A stretch of 45,577 nt of DNA from Thermodesulfovibrionales bacterium (GTDB lineage Bacteria > Nitrospirota > Thermodesulfovibrionia > Thermodesulfovibrionales > UBA9159), in assembly GCA_035686305.1 (NCBI GenBank), contig DASRZP010000040.1:1-45577 (forward strand). The letters are read 5' to 3'. Numbering within the stretch: the stretch's first letter is position 1; each line of letters opens with the position of its first letter. The translations under genes and the position numbers were made by a program. The notes below the pieces were generated by a model. That model was given only the letters and a program-made list of their open reading frames with translations. It searched no databases and was not told the origin of the DNA. Of this stretch, positions 14,768 to 36,076 are shown in pieces.

Positions 14768-14959
14768 TTATTTCCGTATCCTTTCCAGCACCTCACTCTT
14801 CGCCTGTTCGAGGATCTGTTTCTTCTTGGCTTCCGGGGAGATGAGCACAATGTCCTGGGGCTCTCCCTGTTCTTTTTCTAAGATCGCTGATGGTTTCAGT
14901 TTCGACACCCTGTTGTAGAGGTGCATCACCTCATTGATCTGAAAGGGAAAGAGCGTCAT
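14768..14959 (-). CDS. Small conserved-looking flagellar-operon protein, 63 aa
   Basis: I do not recognise a named family with certainty. The ATG at 14959 overlaps the fliS TGA as ATGA and is preceded by GGAGG eight bases away, so translation is well supported. An ATG at 14974 is actually part of that ribosome binding site. The protein is hydrophilic: an N-terminal FPFQINEVMHLYNRVSKLKP segment, then a stretch with LISPEAKKKQILEQAKSEVL that looks like a helix. The S-x-E-A-K-K pattern faintly recalls FlgM-type small proteins. Its place behind fliS suggests a flagellin chaperone partner or small regulator; that is inference. Confidence 0.78.
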   Translation of the reverse strand: MTLFPFQINEVMHLYNRVSKLKPSAILEKEQGEPQDIVLISPEAKKKQILEQAKSEVLERIRK

Positions 14960-15366
14960 GATAGCTGCCTCCATGCAACCCTGAGTTTTTTCAGAAGCCC
15001 TTCGACATTTCTGACCTTTACCGAATCGTTCGTAGTGTTTGCGATAGTCAGTTCTCTCAACATATAGAGATAGATGTCCTGGAGGCTGAGAGCGGTCTGT
15101 CCCCCGGCGTCAAGGTTGAGGGACGCAAGGAGGTTTTCTATAACAGCCATTGACTTTGACAGATAGCGGTCCTTTTGTAAGCCCCTGCCCTGATTCATAT
15201 AAGAGACGGTCTTATTGAGATACACTATCGCGCCATCATAGAGCATAATAATGAGATCAAGGGGTGTAGTGGAGGTATCGACGATGATGTGGTTATAGGT
15301 ACTCTGAACGTTCGTTGCGTTCACTAACATCTCGCTTCCTCTCATCATTGTCAGCTGTTCGTTCAT
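14956..15366 (-). CDS. fliS: Flagellin export chaperone FliS
   Basis: The 136-aa cytosolic four-helix protein binds the flagellin C-terminus and keeps it export-competent. Recognisable parts are the YNHIIVDTSTTPLDLIIMLYDGAI segment (the classical V-x-T-A-x-P-x-x-L-I-x-M-L-Y-D pattern), YLNKTVSYMNQG and a middle ENLLASLNLDAGG helix. The C-terminal half is also typical (YLYMLRELTIANTTND). FliD, its usual neighbour, is not in the window. A near-consensus sigma-28 promoter lies immediately upstream, with only about 7 nt of leader. It heads the minus-strand motility-signalling operon. Confidence 0.92.
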   Translation of the reverse strand: MNEQLTMMRGSEMLVNATNVQSTYNHIIVDTSTTPLDLIIMLYDGAIVYLNKTVSYMNQGRGLQKDRYLSKSMAVIENLLASLNLDAGGQTALSLQDIYLYMLRELTIANTTNDSVKVRNVEGLLKKLRVAWRQLS

Positions 15367-15379
15367 TTCCTTATCTTAC

Positions 15380-15406
15380 TTATCGGAAGATCTCTGAAAA
15401 ACTTTA
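15380..15406 (-). promoter_or_regulatory. Sigma-28 (FliA) promoter of the fliS operon
   Basis: The minus strand reads TAAAGTTT (15399-15406), 11 nt, TCCGATAA (15380-15387), which matches 15 of 16 positions of the enterobacterial consensus TAAAGTTT-N11-GCCGATAA. The predicted start of transcription, about 7 nt downstream, leaves only a handful of bases before the fliS ATG at 15366. It would drive fliS through motB if the operon is continuous. Confidence 0.85.
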
Positions 15407-15743: not shown

Positions 15744-15770
15744 TAAAGTTTTTTGGAAAAGTTCCGATGA
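15744..15770 (+). promoter_or_regulatory. Sigma-28 (FliA) promoter of the flagellin gene
   Basis: TAAAGTTT (15744-15751), 11 nt, then TCCGATGA (15763-15770): a perfect -35 and 6/8 at the -10. The start of transcription near 15777 gives a leader of about 138 nt before the flagellin ATG at 15915, far longer than the other sigma-28 leaders here. The leader contains several GGA triplets and a duplicated CGGCAAGA. That suits post-transcriptional control by FlbT or CsrA, both encoded nearby. Confidence 0.82.
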
Positions 15771-16774: not shown

Positions 16775-17230
16775 ATGATGATCAGAAGTATACAGATGAA
16801 TCAGATGTCGCCTGCCGTCTATCGACAGAGTGACGGGGGTGCGGAGGCAAAGAGCGTTTCGCCTGACACGAGCGTTTCTGCGAGACCTTCAGATCTTCCA
16901 GCACAGAACGTGTTGGCCCATATTGATTATTTTAAAGAACAACTGGACGCAATCCTCACGCAATATCCGCCCTTTTTCCCGCCGGGGAGTTACCAGCGGA
17001 TAGATCTGATTAAAAAGATAAGGGGACTTCAGGACGAGGTAGGAAAGTCATCGCTGCCGGCTGATATCAAAAAGGCTGTCGGGGGGCAGAAACTCGCCGA
17101 CGATGCAACTGATGGTGAAATAGGTGCTGCGATACAAGGCCTTCTGAACGTGAGCAATAAGGCCTCCCAGAAGATATCTGCTGTCAAGGATGCGGCTCGG
17201 CAGGGGTCGATCCTTAATACACGAGTCTGA
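16775..17230 (+). CDS. Uncharacterised protein between flagellin and flbT, 151 aa
   Basis: I do not recognise a family. The first 45 residues are Ser/Pro-rich and probably disordered. Then come VLAHIDYFKEQLDAILTQYP and PPFFPPGSYQRIDLIKKIRG, both helix-like, and an amphipathic C-terminal half with KISAVKDAARQGSILNTRV. There is no signal peptide or membrane segment. AAAGGA lies 8 nt before ATG 16775; a second ATG follows at once. It stands between the flagellin terminator and flbT in the same direction, so a role in flagellin export, assembly or mRNA control is likely from position only. A FlaG-like function is possible. Confidence 0.75.
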   Translation: MMIRSIQMNQMSPAVYRQSDGGAEAKSVSPDTSVSARPSDLPAQNVLAHIDYFKEQLDAILTQYPPFFPPGSYQRIDLIKKIRGLQDEVGKSSLPADIKKAVGGQKLADDATDGEIGAAIQGLLNVSNKASQKISAVKDAARQGSILNTRV

Positions 17231-17248: not shown

Positions 17249-17647
17249 ATGGCTCTGAAGATAACGCTTAAACCGAACGAGAGGTTGATTCTCGGCGGGG
17301 CAGTGATCGCAAATGGAAAGGCCAGGAGCGAATTTGTCGTCGAAAACAATGTCCCCATCCTTCGCGAAAAGGACATTATGAGTTTGAAAGACGCCGATTC
17401 CCCGTGCAAGAGGATTTATTTCGTGGTGCAGCTTATGTATGTTGATGAAAAGAACATGCCCGATCATCATAAGGCCTACTGGGAACTGGTGAAGGATGTT
17501 GCAGAGGCCGCGCCGAGCAGGAGACCGTTACTTCATGAGATCAGCGATCTTATTTTGCATGGCAGGTATTACCGGGCGCTTAAACTCATTCATAAACTCA
17601 TAGACTATGAGCAGGAGGTCATCAATCGTGTACGCAAGTCAACTTGA
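17249..17647 (+). CDS. flbT: Flagellin post-transcriptional repressor FlbT
   Basis: The 132-aa protein has the FlbT signatures: LKPNERLILGGAVIANG at the N-terminus, LREKDIMSLKDADSPCKRIY and FVVQLMYVDEKN. In Caulobacter, FlbT binds the 5' untranslated region of flagellin mRNA and promotes its decay when export is blocked; in some alphaproteobacteria it can activate instead. The long flagellin leader here would be the natural target. FlbT is best known from Alphaproteobacteria, so its presence beside FliS and CsrA is noteworthy. It overlaps flaF by 20 bp. Confidence 0.9.
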   Translation: MALKITLKPNERLILGGAVIANGKARSEFVVENNVPILREKDIMSLKDADSPCKRIYFVVQLMYVDEKNMPDHHKAYWELVKDVAEAAPSRRPLLHEISDLILHGRYYRALKLIHKLIDYEQEVINRVRKST

Positions 17648-18002
17648 AGCATACAGGACTGTCGAGAAAACAACCATGTCAGGAAGAGAGCTAGAGGCGT
17701 CAGTGCTCGCCAAGGCCGCACTGATGCTTAAGGAGTGCCAGGACAATTGGGAAGGCCCTGACCATGCTGCCCGGTTGCAAAAGGCCCTGAGGAATAATCA
17801 GATGGTCTGGACCATCTTCGAGTCGGAGCTTGCAAGGGAGGACAATCCTCTTCCAAAGCAGTTGAGGTTGGATATCCTGAGGCTCGGCGGATTCGTTGAC
17901 AAGCGCATTTTTGAGGTCATGGCAAACCCATCACCTGAAAAATTGACGATGATTATCAACATCAACTTAAATCTTGCAGCCGGCCTCAGGGGGGCACCGT
18001 AG
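17628..18002 (+). CDS. flaF: Flagellin regulator/chaperone FlaF
   Basis: The 124-aa helical protein matches FlaF: SQLEAYRTVEKTTMSGRELEA at the N-terminus, ALRNNQMVWTIFESEL and a C-terminal LRLDILRLGGFVDKR. In alphaproteobacteria FlaF acts with FlbT in flagellin synthesis and secretion. I chose GTG 17628 since AGGAGGT (17613-17619) lies eight bases upstream, inside the 3' end of flbT; the ATG at 17607 would place that site inside the coding region. The last gene of the flagellin-side plus-strand group, it faces the giant glycosyltransferase gene with 39 bp between. Confidence 0.86.
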   Translation: MYASQLEAYRTVEKTTMSGRELEASVLAKAALMLKECQDNWEGPDHAARLQKALRNNQMVWTIFESELAREDNPLPKQLRLDILRLGGFVDKRIFEVMANPSPEKLTMIININLNLAAGLRGAP

Positions 18003-18041: not shown

Positions 18042-21000
18042 TCATTGTTTAGGAACTACATAAAAATTTACAGCGTTTATGTTGACGAACTTGTGCTTAA
18101 CAGTATAGTTGATGTCACTAAGCATATTTTCAAAAGCGGGAACATTGTTATTCATGATTTCTATGAGGATATCAGGTTTGAAGGCAGTTATTGTATTTCG
18201 TGCTCCCTCAAGCACTTCCATTTCCATTTCTTCGACATCGATCTTCATGAAGTCGATCTTTTCCTGAATCAGTTCGTCTATCGGGAAGACCTCTACACCC
18301 CCGGCTTCGTCTGACTCCAGATGTGCCGCGCCAAGGTTGTTTGGGTCCTTATCGTTTAACGAGAAGAGGCCACGTTCTTTGCCCACTCCAACACCGAGCT
18401 TCGAGATATCAAGGCTTGAACAGCCGTTGATTTCTAGGTTACTCTTGAGCAGTCGAATTGCGCGAGGATTTGGTTCGATAAGGATCACCTTTGAGGGGTT
18501 CATGAATTTTTCATAGTATACGGCGTGGTTCCCTATGTTGGCCCCGACTTCCAAAATTACAGAGTCGGGTCGAACCGAACCTGCGATGAATTCTAGCTCC
18601 TTTGTTTCGAAGAACTGCCCGCGCAAATAATTCTGTTGAATCAAATCGGACGCATTGCTGATCTGGAACCTTATAGTCTGCCCTTTATAGCTAAAGGCTG
18701 CTATAGACCCCCGACGATATCGATGCAATATTGCCTCAACGGCTTTCCGCCAGTCCAAACCGGTAGCTGATCTCGGCCCTTGGGAATGCTGTCCACGACG
18801 GTTATAGAAAAAGGGTATGGGTATCTTGATACATTTATAACTTTCCCAGATGCGCATGTAGTAATCAAAGTCTTCTCCTATATCAATTGATTCATCAAAG
18901 ACCTCTGAAAGGGCTATCGTTGTTTTTACAAAATGACCGATCTGCAGGGTGAGGAATGGATCACAGGAAAGCACGTCTTCAATTGAATAGAGAAAAGGCA
19001 GCTGGCCAGGACGCTCATGTGCAACAGTCTCGCCATGTTCAATAGGCCATATTGCTCCCCATATGGCATCGTATCGGTCCAGGTAAGGCGAAACGCTTTC
19101 GAATGCCCGTGGTGCCATCTCATCATCAGCATCGATAAAAAAGATCCAGTCAACGCCCATTTCTGCAGCTTTTCGTACCCCCAGGTTGCGAGCCCTGGAT
19201 CTGCCGAGGGTTCCTTCAGAATCGACTATTGAAAGGGGTATCATTTCCGAAAAGCGGCCTGGATGCAGATCATATGCTCTTTGCGCAGTCTGAAGACACT
19301 TCTTATAAAGATCGAGATGCCCAGGCCCGACAGGAGTAACGACGGCACATCGGTAGGTCCTGTCCAGCGAGACAACAGGGAAGATTTCAGTCAGGGGCAG
19401 TTCAGACTCTTGGTAGTTCGAGCTGTTTCTGTATGAATGGCCGATGGTGAAGTCGGGCATGGTCTGCTTTACAGCATACTCTCTTAGGAATGAAGAGACA
19501 CTGTCAAAGATCTTTTTCCAGTCCTGGTGTTGTTTCTGCCGGAACAGCCGAACGGATGGGTACCATGGCGTATCTTCATGATCCTTCATCCACCTCCAGT
19601 CACAACCACGCGGCAGTAATGCCCATACGGGAACCCCTAAAGCGCCGGCCATGTGAACTGTAGAATTGTCCACGGAGATAACGAGATCGAGCTCGGCGAT
19701 CTGCGCTGCAAAGTCGTCAAGGTCTTTGAGCGGATCAGCGTCGTCCCAATCATGAATCGTGATGCCGAGGTTGTATCTTACCGATTGGAATTCCTCAGTA
19801 CAGTCGCCATACTGGAGATTGATAAAGTGGACATGTGGCACGGAGAGAACGCTTATCCACTCGTCAAGTTTTGTTGACCGCATTGTGCGCACACTAGACT
19901 CTTTGCCCCCTCGCCAAGAAACGCCGACCTTCAGCCCCTCTCCGAGAGCACTGAAACGATTTTGCCATTTCTCTCTTCTTTTAGGATCGGCGATAAGATA
20001 GAATTTCTGTTGCGGAAAGCTTCTGACGTTGGGACGCAGATGCAATGGCAGACTACCCATGGGGATTACCGCGTCCACAGACTGAAGTTCGACGGGCAAC
20101 GATTCTCGGATTAATGGGATTACGGTTAATCGTGGAAATGAACGTGAGAAGAGAGGTACGAGGCGGTCGTCACATTCAACAATGCAGCGCTCTGGTAGAT
20201 GCATGATATCAGGAAAAAGCGAAGCAAACATAATCTGGTCGCCGATGCCCTGTTCCGCATAAATAAACAAAGTCTTATGAGTCAGGGACCACCCATCCCA
20301 TCGCGGATAAGGAAAGGACTTCGGCGCTGATTCCCTTACCAGGGACCGCCACTCGTATTTTCTCCAGCCGGTAGTAAACCGACCCAAGTGCAGTTGTGCG
20401 AGTGCCAGGTTCCAGTGCGCTTCGGGAAGGTCGAGCTGAATGGCAATCGCTCGTTCGCAGCTTTCGATGGCCTTTTCTATCTGCCCGTCGTCGCGGTAAG
20501 TTATACCGAGGTTGTTATGGGCCTCTGCGAAATCGGGTTTGAGCTTCAGCGAGATCTGTCCGCATTCAATGGCTTCTTGTATGCGTCCTTTTTTTCTGTA
20601 GACAATACCGAGATTGTTATATGCCTCTTCAAAATCTGGACGGATCTTTATCGCTTTCTTGTAAAAGCATTCAGCTTCTTCATACCGCTCCAGGTCCTTG
20701 AGGACATTCGCCAGATTGAAATGTGCCTCTGCGTAATCCGGCCTGATCTTGACGGCAAGCGCGTAGTGGGCGATGGCCTCTCGGTCCTTTTTCATGTTAC
20801 GAAAGAGCAACCCTAGATTATAATGAGCCTCATAATAGGCCGGTTTTAATTCCAGGGCATGGAAGTAGCTCTTTGCTGCTTCTTCAAGCCTGTCCAGGAG
20901 CTGTAACGCTTTGCCGAGGTTGTAGTGTGCCTCAGCAAGGACTGGATTCAGCCGAATCGCTGTTACATAGTGCGTGACGGCATTCTCAGTCTCCCCATGG

Positions 21001-21404
21001 TCACAGAGCATGTTTGCCAGGTTGTAATGTGCCTCTGCCATCCGCGGCTCAAGGAAAATGGTTTTCCGAAAGGCTGCTATGGCGTCGTAATTCTTCCCCT
21101 GTTCCTTGAGCACATTTCCAAGATTAAGGTGGAAGAACGCAGCTTTGCCGTCTAAACCAATAGCTTTCCTAATAAGTTCTTCTGCTTCAATGTGATTCCC
21201 CATCTGATAGAAGGCCATGCCGAGGAGATGAAGTGCATCGGGATGATTTGGCTCAACGGCGAGAATGGCCCGATAGCATGATTGTGCTTCCTCTATCTGA
21301 CCGCTTCGGTGGTATTCTAAAGCTCGGTGAAGCCTTCTCTCCACGTCCTTCTTTTTCTTCAATCCGAATTTAGCCAAGCCTATCGAGACCTCCTGAAAAG
21401 ACAT
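18042..21404 (-). CDS. TPR / GT9-like / GT2-like / FkbM methyltransferase fusion, probable flagellin glycan enzyme
   Basis: This 1120-aa cytosolic protein has four modules. Residues about 24-345 form nine or so TPR units of exact 34-residue period (A-x-A-H-Y-N-L-A-x-x-L). Residues about 360-650 resemble heptosyltransferase-like GT9 domains of TPR glycosyltransferases (YAEQGIGDQIMFASLFPDI, VGVSWRGGKES, VDNSTVHMAGALGVPVWALL, RGCDWRWM). Residues about 690-890 are a GT-A/GT2-like domain (LGRSRARNLGVRKAAEMGVD, FFIDADDEM). Residues about 950-1110 are an FkbM-type SAM methyltransferase (ILEVGANIGNHAVYYEKF, IEPNPRAIRLLKSNL, IDFMKIDVEEMEMEVLEGA). Its place beside flagellin, flbT and flaF suggests stepwise glycosylation and methylation of flagellin; that role is inferred. 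No clear promoter was found upstream. Confidence 0.88.
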   Translation of the reverse strand: MSFQEVSIGLAKFGLKKKKDVERRLHRALEYHRSGQIEEAQSCYRAILAVEPNHPDALHLLGMAFYQMGNHIEAEELIRKAIGLDGKAAFFHLNLGNVLKEQGKNYDAIAAFRKTIFLEPRMAEAHYNLANMLCDHGETENAVTHYVTAIRLNPVLAEAHYNLGKALQLLDRLEEAAKSYFHALELKPAYYEAHYNLGLLFRNMKKDREAIAHYALAVKIRPDYAEAHFNLANVLKDLERYEEAECFYKKAIKIRPDFEEAYNNLGIVYRKKGRIQEAIECGQISLKLKPDFAEAHNNLGITYRDDGQIEKAIESCERAIAIQLDLPEAHWNLALAQLHLGRFTTGWRKYEWRSLVRESAPKSFPYPRWDGWSLTHKTLFIYAEQGIGDQIMFASLFPDIMHLPERCIVECDDRLVPLFSRSFPRLTVIPLIRESLPVELQSVDAVIPMGSLPLHLRPNVRSFPQQKFYLIADPKRREKWQNRFSALGEGLKVGVSWRGGKESSVRTMRSTKLDEWISVLSVPHVHFINLQYGDCTEEFQSVRYNLGITIHDWDDADPLKDLDDFAAQIAELDLVISVDNSTVHMAGALGVPVWALLPRGCDWRWMKDHEDTPWYPSVRLFRQKQHQDWKKIFDSVSSFLREYAVKQTMPDFTIGHSYRNSSNYQESELPLTEIFPVVSLDRTYRCAVVTPVGPGHLDLYKKCLQTAQRAYDLHPGRFSEMIPLSIVDSEGTLGRSRARNLGVRKAAEMGVDWIFFIDADDEMAPRAFESVSPYLDRYDAIWGAIWPIEHGETVAHERPGQLPFLYSIEDVLSCDPFLTLQIGHFVKTTIALSEVFDESIDIGEDFDYYMRIWESYKCIKIPIPFFYNRRGQHSQGPRSATGLDWRKAVEAILHRYRRGSIAAFSYKGQTIRFQISNASDLIQQNYLRGQFFETKELEFIAGSVRPDSVILEVGANIGNHAVYYEKFMNPSKVILIEPNPRAIRLLKSNLEINGCSSLDISKLGVGVGKERGLFSLNDKDPNNLGAAHLESDEAGGVEVFPIDELIQEKIDFMKIDVEEMEMEVLEGARNTITAFKPDILIEIMNNNVPAFENMLSDINYTVKHKFVNINAVNFYVVPKQ

Positions 21405-21584: not shown

Positions 21585-21612
21585 TAAAGTATTAAGGCAA
21601 ATCAGCCGATAT
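21585..21612 (+). promoter_or_regulatory. Sigma-28-like promoter of the TPR/Ig-like gene
   Basis: TAAAGTAT (21585-21592), 12 nt, GCCGATAT (21605-21612): 7/8 at each element but with a spacer one base longer than optimal. Transcription from about 21619 leaves a 34-nt leader with CGGGAGA before the TTG start at 21653. The rest of the 248-bp intergenic region shows no other clear site. Confidence 0.68.
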
Positions 21613-21652
21613 GTATAGTAGAATGCATATTCAGAAGTAACGGGAGAATACC

Positions 21653-22840
21653 TTGATTTCTATCGGAAGCACTACAATAGACGCACTGTTTACAGCTATC
21701 CCAGAACAGCAGGACCAGTTCGATGTCCTGGCGAATAATGCGCTATCGAGGGGCATAGATCTTTACCAGAAGGGGAATTATGACGGCGCGGTCAAAGAGT
21801 TCCGGAGGTCCGTCGGGCTATCGCCGAATTCGTCCTACACGCAAAATGCATACGATTATATGGTTCAGTCCCTCCTGAAGCTGGGTCGGACCGATGAAGC
21901 GATCAAAGCCTACCAGCAGGCCATCAAACTTGACCCAATGAATGACAGCTATCACCTCAATCTCGGCAATGTATATTTTAGTTTGAACAGATATGATGAC
22001 GCAGTTGCGGAATATAAGGAGTCCGTGCGAATCAATCCGACATCGACGCTCAACCGTTATTCCCTCGGACAGGCCTATCTGCAGACCGGCAACTACGCGG
22101 AGGCCGAGCGGGCGTTCAAGACCGTGGCCACCCAAACCTCTCACGACGCGAACGTTATGTTTGCCCTTGGGCAGACGTACCGCCGTATGGGCAGATATAA
22201 TGATGCGGTTGATGAGCTTAAGTCAGCCATAGCTACTAAGAAGGATTTCGGATATGCTTACCTCGAGCTCGGTTTTGTGTATGCCGATGAAAAGAATTTT
22301 GACAGTGCGCAGGAACAGGTCTCAGCCCTATCATCGATTGACAAATCACTGGCGACCCAGCTTGGTTCATATATTTATCAGCTGAAGAACCCGAGGATCT
22401 TGGCCGCTTACAGCACTGATCTCCCTGTCACCGATGGGCCGGGCACGAAGGTCTCTGACATTGATCCTTCACTTGCAACTCCCAATTCCACGAAAAGATT
22501 TGTTATGCATTTTATCTTCAGTAAGCCAATGGATGTGTCGACCGTGCAGAACCCCGCATTCTGGAGCATCACCAAGGCCGATGGTCGGAACTGGGGTGGT
22601 GTTTACAACTGGGGAATGCCGACACCAGCTACCGAGGTTTCGTTACCTGTTCCGGATGTCGTTTTCTATCATGAGAATACCCAGACTGCGGATGTCACCT
22701 TTCAGATCAGCCAAAACGCTTCGGGGGACGGTACACTGGATCCGGCCCATCTCGTATTCAGGTTCCGTGGCAAGGATGCCTATGGAATGACAATGGATCA
22801 GTCAGCCGACGAATATAGCGGTTTTTCCAAAATTGTGTAG
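21653..22840 (+). CDS. TPR protein with Ig-like C-terminal domain, sigma-28 controlled
   Basis: The 395-aa product has no signal peptide. Residues about 25-230 are six TPR-like repeats (YQKGNYDGAVKEFRRSVGL, DEAIKAYQQAIKLDP, and so on). Residues about 275-395 look like a beta-sandwich of the SbsA Ig-like (Big_5-like) type: FVMHFIFSKPMDVSTVQNPA, FWSITKADGRNWGGVYNWG and a closing HLVFRFRGKDAYGMTMD. The start is TTG 21653, with CGGGAGA eight bases upstream. A sigma-28 promoter and neighbouring flagellar genes point to late flagellar expression. It might be a filament-associated or exported accessory, or a scaffold for the modification enzymes. I know no exact function. Confidence 0.82.
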   Translation: MISIGSTTIDALFTAIPEQQDQFDVLANNALSRGIDLYQKGNYDGAVKEFRRSVGLSPNSSYTQNAYDYMVQSLLKLGRTDEAIKAYQQAIKLDPMNDSYHLNLGNVYFSLNRYDDAVAEYKESVRINPTSTLNRYSLGQAYLQTGNYAEAERAFKTVATQTSHDANVMFALGQTYRRMGRYNDAVDELKSAIATKKDFGYAYLELGFVYADEKNFDSAQEQVSALSSIDKSLATQLGSYIYQLKNPRILAAYSTDLPVTDGPGTKVSDIDPSLATPNSTKRFVMHFIFSKPMDVSTVQNPAFWSITKADGRNWGGVYNWGMPTPATEVSLPVPDVVFYHENTQTADVTFQISQNASGDGTLDPAHLVFRFRGKDAYGMTMDQSADEYSGFSKIV

Positions 22841-22914: not shown

Positions 22915-23522
22915 ATGGCTCAGAATGTAATCTGGCAGGAACGGCTCGTATCACGCCGCGAGCGGAACTTGATGAATAAGCATAGGAGCGGGATTGTCTG
23001 GTTCACGGGGCTCTCGACCTCGGGGAAATCGACGATTGCTCATCACCTCGAGAAGGACCTTTTTGATAGGGGCATAAGGACGTATGTCCTCGACGGCGAC
23101 AATGTCCGCCATGGCATCAACTCGAATCTCGGCTTCAGTCGTGAGGACCGCAGAGAGAACCTGAGGAGGATAGCCGAAGTATCAAAATAAAATTGTATGT
23201 TGATGCCGGGATCGTCGTGCTCGCCGCCTTTATCTCACCCTATCGGGAAGACCGCGCCTATGTCAAAGAGGTTGTGGGCGCCGAAGATTTTTTCGAGGTA
23301 TATGTCCAGTGCTCGCTGGAAGTCTGTGAGAATAGAGATCCCAAGGGGCTCTACAAAAAGGCAAGAGCGGGGATTATCAAGAACTACACAGGCATTGATG
23401 CTCCCTATGAGGAACCCTTACAACCCGACCTTGTCATTGATACCGTAAGACTCGATGTAGCGTCGTCCGTGGAGAGTGTGTTAAGATTTCTTGACGAAAG
23501 AAAATTCATTCTTCTGCTGTAA
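22915..23522 (+). pseudogene. cysC: Adenylylsulfate kinase, interrupted by a frameshift
   Basis: APS kinase phosphorylates adenylylsulfate to PAPS. The first part (22915-23190) holds the P-loop GLSTSGKST (32-40), DGDNVRHGINSNLGFSREDR and RRENLRRIAEVSK, then hits TAA at 23188. The second part resumes in another frame at 23193 with LYVDAGIVVLAAFISPYRED, FFEVYVQCSLEVCENRDPKG and a complete C-terminus to 23522. Together they form a full-length APS kinase of about 200 residues. The break looks like a 5-base insertion in an A-rich run (AAAATAAAA); a one-base sequencing error would leave two extra residues. It may be a real pseudogene, an assembly error or, less likely, a -1 frameshift site. It lacks the sulfurylase domain of CysN/C fusions. 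Confidence 0.85.
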
Positions 23523-24569: not shown

Positions 24570-25649
24570 CTACTGCAAGAAGTCGAGCAACGACGTGGAG
24601 AGGACTTTTGCCGCAGATGATTGTAATGCCTGGAGAGCAACACTGGCCTGCTGCATGTCCACGTAGGTCTGGTTGATATCGGCATCCTCGATCTTTGCAC
24701 GGGCGCTTTCGAGACTGAGATTCATCTGGTCGAATCTTGTCTTCTGATCATTCATAACATCGCCCCGCGCACCAACCTCAGCCTGCTGCGCAAGCACCTG
24801 ACTCCTGGCAGCATCAATGACCGAATCGAGTGCATCCATCCTGTGCTGTGCCTTCTCTTGGCTGATATCTGCCGAGGGGTCAAGGGCGGTCCCATCCACA
24901 TTCTGGTTTTTCCATGCGAAGCTTACGACATTGGCTATGTCCATGACATTGGTCACTCTGAAGGTATCGTAGTCAGGATCACCCACATTGCCGATTTCGA
25001 CGGTGATTGTGTTCACGCCTGTTACAGGGTCTTTTGCCTGGGTATAGCTCACGGGCGTGCCGTCAGAGAGAGCCGCGGGCATCGTCCCGCCAAGACCAGC
25101 TCTGAAGGCAGTGCTTCCCTGAACATTCGTGGCCATTGATGAATTCGCGTCTATCGGGACCTGGATACTCCCGAGGTCTCCGTTATAATCGAACGTGTTA
25201 GTAACAGCATTGAAGGTGAAAGCCTGCTGATCGGTCTTGAAGCCCGAGAAGAGATACCTGTTCCCAACCTTTGTGTTTGCCAAGCCGAGGAGAAAATCCC
25301 GATATCCGGCAGCCTGCTGGGAGTTGGCATCTTTCGTCTCCTGTGTTTGATTGTTGATTCCCGCTGAGGCAAGGTCCTTCAGGTTGCTTAAGGTATCGGC
25401 AGCCGAGGTGAAGACCTTGTCAGTTGCATCCAGGAATATGTTCGCCTGCTGCATATTGTTTTCGTATTGAGTATTCGTCTGAATGCTCACCTTATAATCG
25501 ATAGCCTGAGCCTCTCCGGCGGGATCGTCTGACGGTTTATTGATCTTCTTCCCTGTGGCCAATTGCGTATTCGCGTCGGCGAGTTGGGATGCGGCGTCCT
25601 GCATCGCCTTCGCCATCTGAGCATATACCATCATGGTCGAGACTCTCAT
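24570..25649 (-). CDS. flgL: Flagellar hook-filament junction protein FlgL (HAP3)
   Basis: The 359-aa protein has the flagellin-like N-terminus of FlgL (MRVSTMMVYAQMAKAMQDAA, TQLATGKKINKPSDDP) and a matching C-terminal helix (IEDADINQTYVDMQQASVAL, ALQSSAAKVLSTSLLDFL). It joins the hook-side FlgK ring to the filament. A middle part of about 200 residues includes the typical YLFSGFKTDQQAF segment. Three residues further up is another ATG (25658), but the AAAGGA ribosome binding site touches it directly; ATG 25649 has a 9-nt spacer. It follows flgK with an 18-bp gap. Confidence 0.94.
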   Translation of the reverse strand: MRVSTMMVYAQMAKAMQDAASQLADANTQLATGKKINKPSDDPAGEAQAIDYKVSIQTNTQYENNMQQANIFLDATDKVFTSAADTLSNLKDLASAGINNQTQETKDANSQQAAGYRDFLLGLANTKVGNRYLFSGFKTDQQAFTFNAVTNTFDYNGDLGSIQVPIDANSSMATNVQGSTAFRAGLGGTMPAALSDGTPVSYTQAKDPVTGVNTITVEIGNVGDPDYDTFRVTNVMDIANVVSFAWKNQNVDGTALDPSADISQEKAQHRMDALDSVIDAARSQVLAQQAEVGARGDVMNDQKTRFDQMNLSLESARAKIEDADINQTYVDMQQASVALQALQSSAAKVLSTSLLDFLQ

Positions 25650-25667
25650 GACATTCATTCCTTTCCG

Positions 25668-27317
25668 CTATCCGGTTGATGTGGTAACCATACCCAGTAC
25701 TGTCTGGATCAATTGATCCGTCACCGCGATCATTTTCGCAGCCGCCTCATAGGACCTCTGAAACCGTATAAGGTTCACGGCCTCTTCATCAAGGGAGACT
25801 CCTGATTCGGAGTCGCGTTGGTTGTTCAGTTGCGAAAGCATATTCTGATCGAACGTCAGGGTGTCAGAGGCAGCGCCGCTGAGGGTTCCGACATTTGAGA
25901 CAATTCCCCCGTAAAAATCCGCAAAAGTTGAGCCCCCCAGGTTTGCCACTGCAGTGTTCGATAATTGCGCCAGTTTCAGCGCGTTACTGTTGTTCCCCGG
26001 CAATTCAGTGTCTGATGACGAGGCGGCTATCTTGTCCGGATCTGTGATCGCAACTCCCAGGTTCTTGATCGCGTCAGTGAGGGGACTTACAGAGAAGCTG
26101 TCGCCGCCCGCTACGCTGCCGGTCCCGTCTGCTATGGTGACCTGGATCCCGTCAAAACTTATAGGATTCCCTGAGGTATAGGCGCCTGTCGCGACAACCT
26201 TTCCTGTCTGACTGTCGGTTACGGAATAGTTTTGGGACGCGTCAAAGGTTATCGTATATTCATCAAGAGTCAGCTGCGAGGAATCTGTTATCGAAGCAGA
26301 GGTGATCTGTGCCCCGGCGGATTGGCTCTTTGTCGACAGTTGAAGCGGGTTGAAAAAATCATTTCCCGTGGTTCCGTCAAGTCCATAACCCGAGCTGTGT
26401 AACAGATTGACCTCTTTTGTTACGGACGCCACCATTTTCCGGAGTCCCATGAGGGGACCGGATTCCACTTCACTCTGTGCAGCCAGCAATCCTCCCAGTT
26501 GTCCTCTGGTGACATTCGATGTGATATCTGTGTTATCAAGAATAAGATCCTGGTTTCCGTCCGAATTTGTTTGCGTCGAAAGGGCGTTTGTTTTGTCCCC
26601 TTCAACGAGATTCCTCATGCCCACGGTGATGGTTAGTGAACCATTCTGGTCACCGTAATAAGAAAATTCGGTGAGGGACGCGAGTTGATTCAAAAGATTA
26701 TCGCGCTGGTCTCTCAAATCATTTGCCTGACCGGAAGTACCTCCTGCCTCGATCTGAGTTATTTTTCCATTTAACGCCGCAATGTCTGTTGCAAGGATGT
26801 TTATCTGATCGACAGCGCCTTTGATATCGTTATTCGTCTGGTTATATGCGGCGGTTATCGAGCTTTCCATCTGTTTTGCCACATCTACGAAGGAAGCTGC
26901 CTTTTGGAGCAAGACGGTTCTCTGTGGCTGGCTCTCAGGATTTGTGGCCACGTCATTCCAAGCATTGAAAAAGTCTGTAAAAGATTTCGAAAGACCTGTG
27001 TCAGTCGAATCGCCGAAGACCTGTTCGACCTGGCTTAACAACTGGCTCAATGCAGACGACCTGCCCTGGTTTTGATTTTGCCCGATCAGTTGAGACTGGA
27101 TAAAAGCGTCATAACTCCTCTTTATTCCTGAGACCGTGACACCCCCTCCCACCAAGGTGTTCCCGAAGGAAGTTGAGTTGGCAACATCGAGAATCACGTC
27201 CTGTTTGCTGAAACCGGGAGTGTTTACGTTGGCGATGTTATTGCTCGTTGTGGTGAGCGCAGCCTGGCTCGCGAAGAGTGCGGACTTGCCGATATCGAAT
27301 AAGCCGAGGAGAGACAA
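25668..27317 (-). CDS. flgK: Flagellar hook-associated protein FlgK (HAP1)
   Basis: The 549-aa protein starts with the FlgK signature (LFDIGKSALFASQAALTTTS, NNIANVNTPGFSKQ) and ends with the C-terminal helix SGVSLDEEAVNLIRFQRSYE plus AAKMIAVTDQLIQTVLGMV. The DLRDQRDNLLNQLASL region is typical of the D1 part. It forms the first hook-filament junction ring. The start is TTG 27317, preceded by GGGAGG; the flgN stop is immediately adjacent, with no gap. Length and order are ordinary. Confidence 0.95.
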   Translation of the reverse strand: MSLLGLFDIGKSALFASQAALTTTSNNIANVNTPGFSKQDVILDVANSTSFGNTLVGGGVTVSGIKRSYDAFIQSQLIGQNQNQGRSSALSQLLSQVEQVFGDSTDTGLSKSFTDFFNAWNDVATNPESQPQRTVLLQKAASFVDVAKQMESSITAAYNQTNNDIKGAVDQINILATDIAALNGKITQIEAGGTSGQANDLRDQRDNLLNQLASLTEFSYYGDQNGSLTITVGMRNLVEGDKTNALSTQTNSDGNQDLILDNTDITSNVTRGQLGGLLAAQSEVESGPLMGLRKMVASVTKEVNLLHSSGYGLDGTTGNDFFNPLQLSTKSQSAGAQITSASITDSSQLTLDEYTITFDASQNYSVTDSQTGKVVATGAYTSGNPISFDGIQVTIADGTGSVAGGDSFSVSPLTDAIKNLGVAITDPDKIAASSSDTELPGNNSNALKLAQLSNTAVANLGGSTFADFYGGIVSNVGTLSGAASDTLTFDQNMLSQLNNQRDSESGVSLDEEAVNLIRFQRSYEAAAKMIAVTDQLIQTVLGMVTTSTG

Positions 27318-28090: not shown

Positions 28091-28117
28091 TTATCGGAAC
28101 TTCTCTGGAATTCTTTA
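28091..28117 (-). promoter_or_regulatory. Sigma-28 promoter of the flgM-flgN-flgK-flgL-csrA operon
   Basis: The minus strand reads TAAAGAAT (28110-28117), 11 nt, TCCGATAA (28091-28098): 6/8 at the -35 and 7/8 at the -10, with optimal spacing. The predicted leader is about 24 nt and contains the GGAGG of flgM. The site lies just upstream of the FlgJ-like gene stop, so read-through from the sigma-54 operon may also reach flgM. Confidence 0.82.
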
Positions 28118-36049: not shown

Positions 36050-36076
36050 TTATCGGCTGGAAGGTGAGAAACTTTA
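36050..36076 (-). promoter_or_regulatory. Perfect sigma-28 promoter of the HDOD operon
   Basis: The minus strand reads TAAAGTTT (36069-36076), 11 nt, GCCGATAA (36050-36057): all 16 consensus positions and the optimal spacer. It is the best sigma-28 match in the window and lies before HDOD-type genes not usually listed among filament genes. Confidence 0.9.

Follow-up and report, generated by a model that had tools for sequence, protein, structure and literature searches.

The window (the whole stretch of DNA analysed here, 45,577 nucleotides from a Thermodesulfovibrionales bacterium) encodes a protein in which a tetratricopeptide repeat (TPR) array, two putative glycosyltransferases and a putative methyltransferase are joined in a single chain, and its gene lies among flagellar genes. 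What does such a fusion act on, and do its modules work on one substrate? A first-pass annotation had read it as a possible assembly line that docks flagellin, adds and extends a glycan and caps it by O-methylation. We examined its modules, its genomic surroundings, its relatives in other genomes and the known systems that it resembles.

Four modules on one chain

The fusion ORF begins with ATG and runs through 1120 codons (3.36 kb) with zero internal stops; under a composition-only null, an open frame as long as this has a probability of about 1e-25. With the whole chain as query, Pfam recognises approximately nine TPR stretches, FkbM (PF05050, 1.6e-19) and Glycos_transf_2 (3.3e-7). The GT2 module scores above its curated cut-off (33.6 bits vs 23.3 for PF00535), as does the FkbM module in both collections (74.7 vs 22.7 bits for PF05050 and 91.1 vs 37.7 bits for TIGR01444). 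In residues 340-680, the sole Pfam match is Glyco_transf_9 (PF01075, E = 0.0022), which at 17.8 bits falls short of the curated cut-off of 22 bits, and the label "GT9-like" therefore required a structural test. The AlphaFold2 model of residues 330-665, built with 44 aligned relatives, has a pLDDT of 91.9 and a pTM of 0.92. When this model was compared with the PDB by Foldseek, E. coli WaaF (1psw) came first, followed by a Veillonella GT9 protein (3tov), WaaC (2h1h) and TibC (4rb4), which places its GT-B fold nearest to GT9 enzymes; a PDB sequence search with the same module gave no useful match. Residues 676-1120, which hold the GT2 and FkbM modules, were also modelled (pLDDT 92.4, pTM 0.75), and Foldseek returned the FkbM structure 2py6 at the top as well as the GT2 enzymes TarP, RmlT, TarS and chondroitin polymerase. 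The four modules claimed for this chain are thus borne out by the open frame, Pfam, homologues and predicted folds. The two glycosyltransferases are indeed of unlike fold, one GT-B (GT9-like) and the other GT-A (GT2), and the methyltransferase is of the FkbM family with a Rossmann fold (Pfam, NCBIfam and Foldseek).

Two other identities of the GT-B module were considered and rejected. It is not an OGT/GT41 enzyme, given that PF01075 was its only match at E <= 0.1 and that Foldseek puts GT9 enzymes first and SPY 46th. A flagellin glycosyltransferase of the Maf type is likewise rejected, the module being GT9-like and a search of the fusion's own genome for MptE-like/Maf proteins (PF01973) giving no match.

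The active-site motifs are well preserved. In the GT9-like module there is a QGxGD motif with D389, together with H584/G587/G590. D389 and H584 are each found in 43 of the 44 homologues; from the known WaaC motifs and from the homologue alignment, we take these two residues to be catalytic or donor-binding. The DADD and GED motifs of the GT2 module are intact and conserved in the alignment, as are EVGANIG (the SAM motif), E977 and KIDVE in the FkbM module. Loss of catalytic residues, which the first-pass annotation had named as evidence against its own reading, was looked for in these motifs, and all of them are intact. The FkbM part has a G+C content of 0.44, compared with 0.49-0.51 in the remaining modules.

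The flagellar locus around the fusion

The window is a motility locus. FlgI, FlgJ/M23, FlgN, FlgK and FlgL are encoded to the right of the fusion, and FlaF, FlbT, a small gene and flagellin to its left, followed by MotA/MotB pairs and signalling genes (Table 1). The fusion had been described as lying beside flagellin, which holds at the level of the locus, but its immediate neighbour is flaF, in convergent orientation at a distance of 40 bp, and flbT and the small gene come before flagellin. The small gene has no match in Pfam or NCBIfam. A genome search found no flagellin other than this one besides FlgL. Twelve of the 30 residues at positions 144-173 of the flagellin are Ser or Thr and, judged from sequence, this stretch is a plausible candidate for the region that accepts a glycan.

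Table 1. Positions of the fusion gene, its modules and neighbouring features in the window, and of type IV pilin loci in other genomes
Feature	Position	Strand	Evidence
Fusion gene, TPR - GT9-like - GT2 - FkbM, 1120 aa	18042..21404	-	open frame, Pfam, homologues
TPR array, residues 21-345, about nine repeats, proposed flagellin-docking arm	20370..21344	-	PF13414 3.8e-61, PF00515 1e-58
GT9/heptosyltransferase-like GT-B module, residues 346-650	19455..20369	-	AlphaFold2, Foldseek, conserved D389/H584
Linker, residues 651-680, differs among homologues	19365..19454	-	alignment
GT2 (GT-A) module, residues 681-898, DADD 758-761, GED 843-845	18711..19364	-	PF00535 4.5e-8, Foldseek, motif conservation
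FkbM methyltransferase module, residues 899-1120	18045..18710	-	PF05050 1.3e-20, TIGR01444 8.8e-26, Foldseek 2py6
flaF, convergent neighbour of fusion	17607..18002	+	PF07309 1.7e-31
flbT	17249..17647	+	PF07378 1.6e-43
Small gene in the flagellin-flbT interval	16775..17230	+	weak homologue in same place in G054, BLASTP 8e-7 to L029 gene
Flagellin, 264 aa	15915..16709	+	PF00669 1.9e-11
flgL (hook-filament junction protein)	24570..25658	-	PF00669/PF00700; 45% identity to L031 FlgL-like gene; adjoins flgK
flgK	25668..27317	-	PF22638 1.6e-54
Sigma-28-like site upstream of flagellin, candidate promoter, 2 mismatches	15744..15770	+	pattern scan
Type IV pilin locus	L046:16528-16947		
Type IV pilin locus	L043:17694-18110		
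Type IV pilin locus	L044:20286-20639		
Type IV pilin locus	L037:15914-16330		

A scan of the fusion's own strand for sigma-28 or sigma-70 promoters in front of the gene found none that is convincing. Sites similar to the sigma-28 pattern TAAA-N15-GCCGATAA, with 0-1 mismatches, are present at 36050-36076, 28091-28117 and 15380-15406 and precede an HDOD gene, the flgN-flgK-flgL group and the gene at 14956-15366, respectively. Divergent from the fusion is a gene (21585-22840) for another TPR protein, whose C-terminal region is distinct, and a near-perfect sigma-28-like site (TAAA-N16-GCCGATAT) lies 40 bp upstream of it. An APS-kinase (cysC)-like gene at 22915-23500 carries an apparent frameshift near 23187, inside a short direct repeat rich in A/T; it looks like a pseudogene or an assembly error, and it is followed by an inositol-phosphatase/cysQ-like gene.

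Relatives with fused and separate modules

Of 396 genomes surveyed in the phylum, six have the GT2 module, among them the fusion's own genome, G054 and G036. The TPR-GT9-GT2 core is present in three further genomes of the phylum (G054, G036 and L057), the copy in L057 being cut by a contig end. The proteins in G054 and G036 share 50-51% overall identity with the fusion in alignment. The gene in G054 also sits between FlgL and FlaF/FlbT, and that in G036 has no flagellar neighbours within the 17 kb examined. Of these TPR-GT9-GT2 proteins of related Nitrospirota (P0001, P0002 and L057), P0001 and P0002 are about 50% identical to the fusion over three modules but, unlike the fusion, have no FkbM module. 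In the GT9 tree, the Nitrospirota modules (window, G036, L031 and L057) form a supported group (96/88). The FkbM module has a history of its own: in a GT2-FkbM-FkbM protein from another genome of the order, the second FkbM shares 63% identity with it, whereas the GT2 modules of the two proteins share only 47% identity, which indicates that FkbM has moved independently of GT2. Because of this difference, and because of its lower G+C content, FkbM looks from sequence comparison as if it had joined an older TPR-GT9-GT2 core at a later time, as a part mobile in its own right. It appears to be lineage-specific here, the conserved core being TPR-GT9-GT2; alternatively, FkbM may have been lost in the relatives.

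Between flgL and the TPR-GT9-GT2 gene of G054 there is a gene for a 2037-aa protein (L029:1508-7621), which has a sulfotransferase domain at its start, then TPRs and a GT2 domain, and the remainder of which resembles TPRs and glycosyltransferases.

Beyond the phylum, a scan with the GT2 module as query, covering about 85,000 genomes of named species, yielded 28 close loci. Pseudomonas panipatensis (L035) and Pseudomonas sp. S31 (L052) each have a TPR-GT9 gene with a GT2-FkbM gene behind it, at a distance of about 27 bp and 21 bp, respectively, and both pairs are located between fliC and flgL. These pairs thus have the same modules in the same order as the fusion, but as separate adjacent genes. 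In each of these two genomes, the TPR-GT9 gene at the flagellar locus is the only one at E <= 1e-15. Since just two of 199 sampled Pseudomonas genomes have TPR-GT9, it is sporadic in this genus; the second case adjoins fliC, as do all three of the three Pseudomonas examples. A Beijerinckiaceae MAG (L038) has the order flagellin fliC, TPR-GT9, GT2 and fliD, and no FkbM domain was recognised in its protein.

Similar genes are also found away from the flagellum. Betaproteobacterial MAGs have arrays of multiple TPR-GT9 genes, accompanied by GT2 or GT2-FkbM genes, next to type IV pilin genes (Table 1; one of these MAGs is labelled Chitinophaga), and these arrays possibly represent a cytoplasmic pilin-glycosylation kit. 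The module kit is therefore not inherently flagellar. In the tree, the flagellum-linked GT9 modules stand opposite the betaproteobacterial pilin-linked set across a branch with support 98/97, a split that is confounded by taxonomy. In Azospirillum there are 21 TPR-GT9 matches, and two of its chains, L142:155-3574 (1139 aa) and L142:4048-8769 (1573 aa), contain two and three consecutive TPR-GT9 units, respectively. These chains belong to the same enzyme family and are assembly-line-like in their layout, and multi-unit chains are thus not unique to the window. The single-gene fusion had been called unusual. In one respect it is: all four modules are in one chain, and no second four-module protein was seen among the loci examined. 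It is less singular in that related Nitrospirota conserve the TPR-GT9-GT2 part, bifunctional GT2-FkbM proteins are common and the Azospirillum chains have several units.

A probable flagellin-modifying enzyme

Several known systems combine parts of this arrangement. The closest is FlmG of Caulobacter crescentus (CCNA_01524), which, judged by domain layout and fold, resembles the fusion: its TPR array is N-terminal and leads into a GT-B domain, it serves the flagellum, and FlaF belongs to the system. The TPR domain of FlmG binds flagellins, and both its TPR and GT domains are needed for modification (PMC7591256). FlmG is a two-domain protein of 596 aa that acts with pseudaminic acid (PMC7591256), whereas the fusion adds GT2 and FkbM. 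TibC and the autotransporter heptosyltransferases, as well as WaaC and WaaF, share the GT9-like GT-B fold, and TibC glycosylates a protein; however, these enzymes are 11-15% identical to the fusion, have no TPR array and act on an autotransporter or LPS. Enterobacterial flagellin glycosylation islands contain FkbM genes and glycosyltransferase-methyltransferase fusions, which like the window protein place both kinds of domain on one chain in a flagellin locus; these fusions are of the GT41 or GT2 type, and in the accessible part of their description a TPR-GT9-GT2 arrangement is not among them (PMC4875605). In Pseudomonas syringae, the flagellin glycan loses a methyl group on its terminal sugar when vioM is deleted (PMC3927599). 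A literature search on flagellin glycosylation in Azospirillum or Nitrospirae found nothing relevant. What is new here is a docking, two-transferase and methyltransferase set on one chain in a flagellin locus.

By analogy with FlmG, we propose, with a probability of roughly 0.6, that the fusion modifies flagellin in the cytoplasm and also contains, within one polypeptide, the modules for the two pathway steps that follow. That it takes part in flagellin modification in general can be stated with greater assurance and is likely. The gene lies beside flagellin-handling genes and joins modules that are kept as separate neighbours elsewhere, so decoration of flagellin is probable; the fusion looks like a fused flagellin-glycosylation operon, and the filament protein probably receives from it a short, methyl-capped sugar chain. 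The suggestion that the TPR array docks flagellin has a direct precedent in FlmG (PMC7591256), after which the array would hold flagellin prior to export. The GT9-like module would attach the first sugar to Ser/Thr of flagellin, as suggested by FlmG and by the fold shared with TibC. GT2 would then add one or more further sugars, in view of its fold and motifs and of the way it is paired with TPR-GT9 in flagellar operons, and FkbM may O-methylate the glycan as a cap, as its family and the methylated flagellin glycans of other bacteria suggest. The order GT9, GT2, FkbM is tentative, at slightly less than even odds. More doubtful still is the full picture of a self-contained assembly line, in which successive modules would attach, extend and methyl-cap the glycan on TPR-held flagellin before export, as one version of a modular TPR-GT kit aimed at the main subunit of the flagellum or the type IV pilus.

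Some of the same evidence would fit a different target. If the fusion glycosylated another surface or pilus protein, its flagellar placement would be incidental or reflect co-regulation only, and the pilin-associated arrays in L037, L043, L044 and L046, the three-module gene in G036, away from flagellar genes within the 17 kb examined, and the many Azospirillum matches could be read in this way. However, the fusion is the only TPR-GT9 gene in its own genome and lies between flgL and flaF/flbT/flagellin; the other TPR matches examined in this genome (L003 and L006) are TPR proteins whose N-terminal halves are hydrophobic. The Pseudomonas examples next to fliC and, allowing for taxonomy, the GT9 tree also speak for the flagellum, and we consider another target improbable. 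To a similar degree it is improbable that flagellin is modified but no single ordered chain is built, with GT9 and GT2 acting at separate sites, or FkbM methylating flagellin itself or a nucleotide-sugar precursor. The modules do recombine freely, as GT2 alone (L122), GT2-FkbM-FkbM (P0004) and GT2-FkbM without an adjacent TPR-GT9 (L048 and L051), and the separate descent of FkbM agrees with such independence. Against this, GT2 and FkbM have no docking domain of their own and directly follow TPR-GT9 in flagellar operons, and glycosylation islands repeatedly carry FkbM genes (PMC4875605). Decay of one or more modules, leaving merely a TPR chaperone or scaffold for flagellin, is very improbable: a scaffold role is common among TPR proteins and the frameshifted cysC-like gene indicates that decay or assembly error occurs in the window, but every catalytic motif is intact and conserved, the models are confident and the frame is open throughout.

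As a flagellin-modifying enzyme, the fusion would show that cytoplasmic flagellin glycosyltransferases of the FlmG type, which were defined in an alphaproteobacterium, also occur in a Nitrospirota lineage, and as a Rosetta-stone fusion it ties TPR-GT9, GT2 and FkbM to one pathway. It would provide a one-gene system for studying how several enzymes work in turn on a docked protein acceptor and, in glycoengineering, could allow one-gene installation of a glycan on a fused acceptor-binding arm.

With respect to the sugars themselves, the genes annotated next to the fusion include none for sugar-nucleotide synthesis; this, like the lack of a sigma-28 site upstream of the fusion, speaks against the proposed role. 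Sulfation of the glycan, hinted at by the cysC/cysQ-like genes and by the sulfotransferase domain of the G054 neighbour, was rejected; the fusion's own genome has no Sulfotransfer_3 and its cysC-like gene is frameshifted. With respect to pseudaminic acid as a possible donor, one NeuB-like protein was found on another contig, in an unrelated-looking cluster; its scores do not reach the NeuB and PseI cut-offs of NCBIfam. This cluster (L124:2557-7056) also encodes an aminomutase-like PLP enzyme, an SDR and a transketolase-like protein, and it possibly makes an unusual surface sugar.
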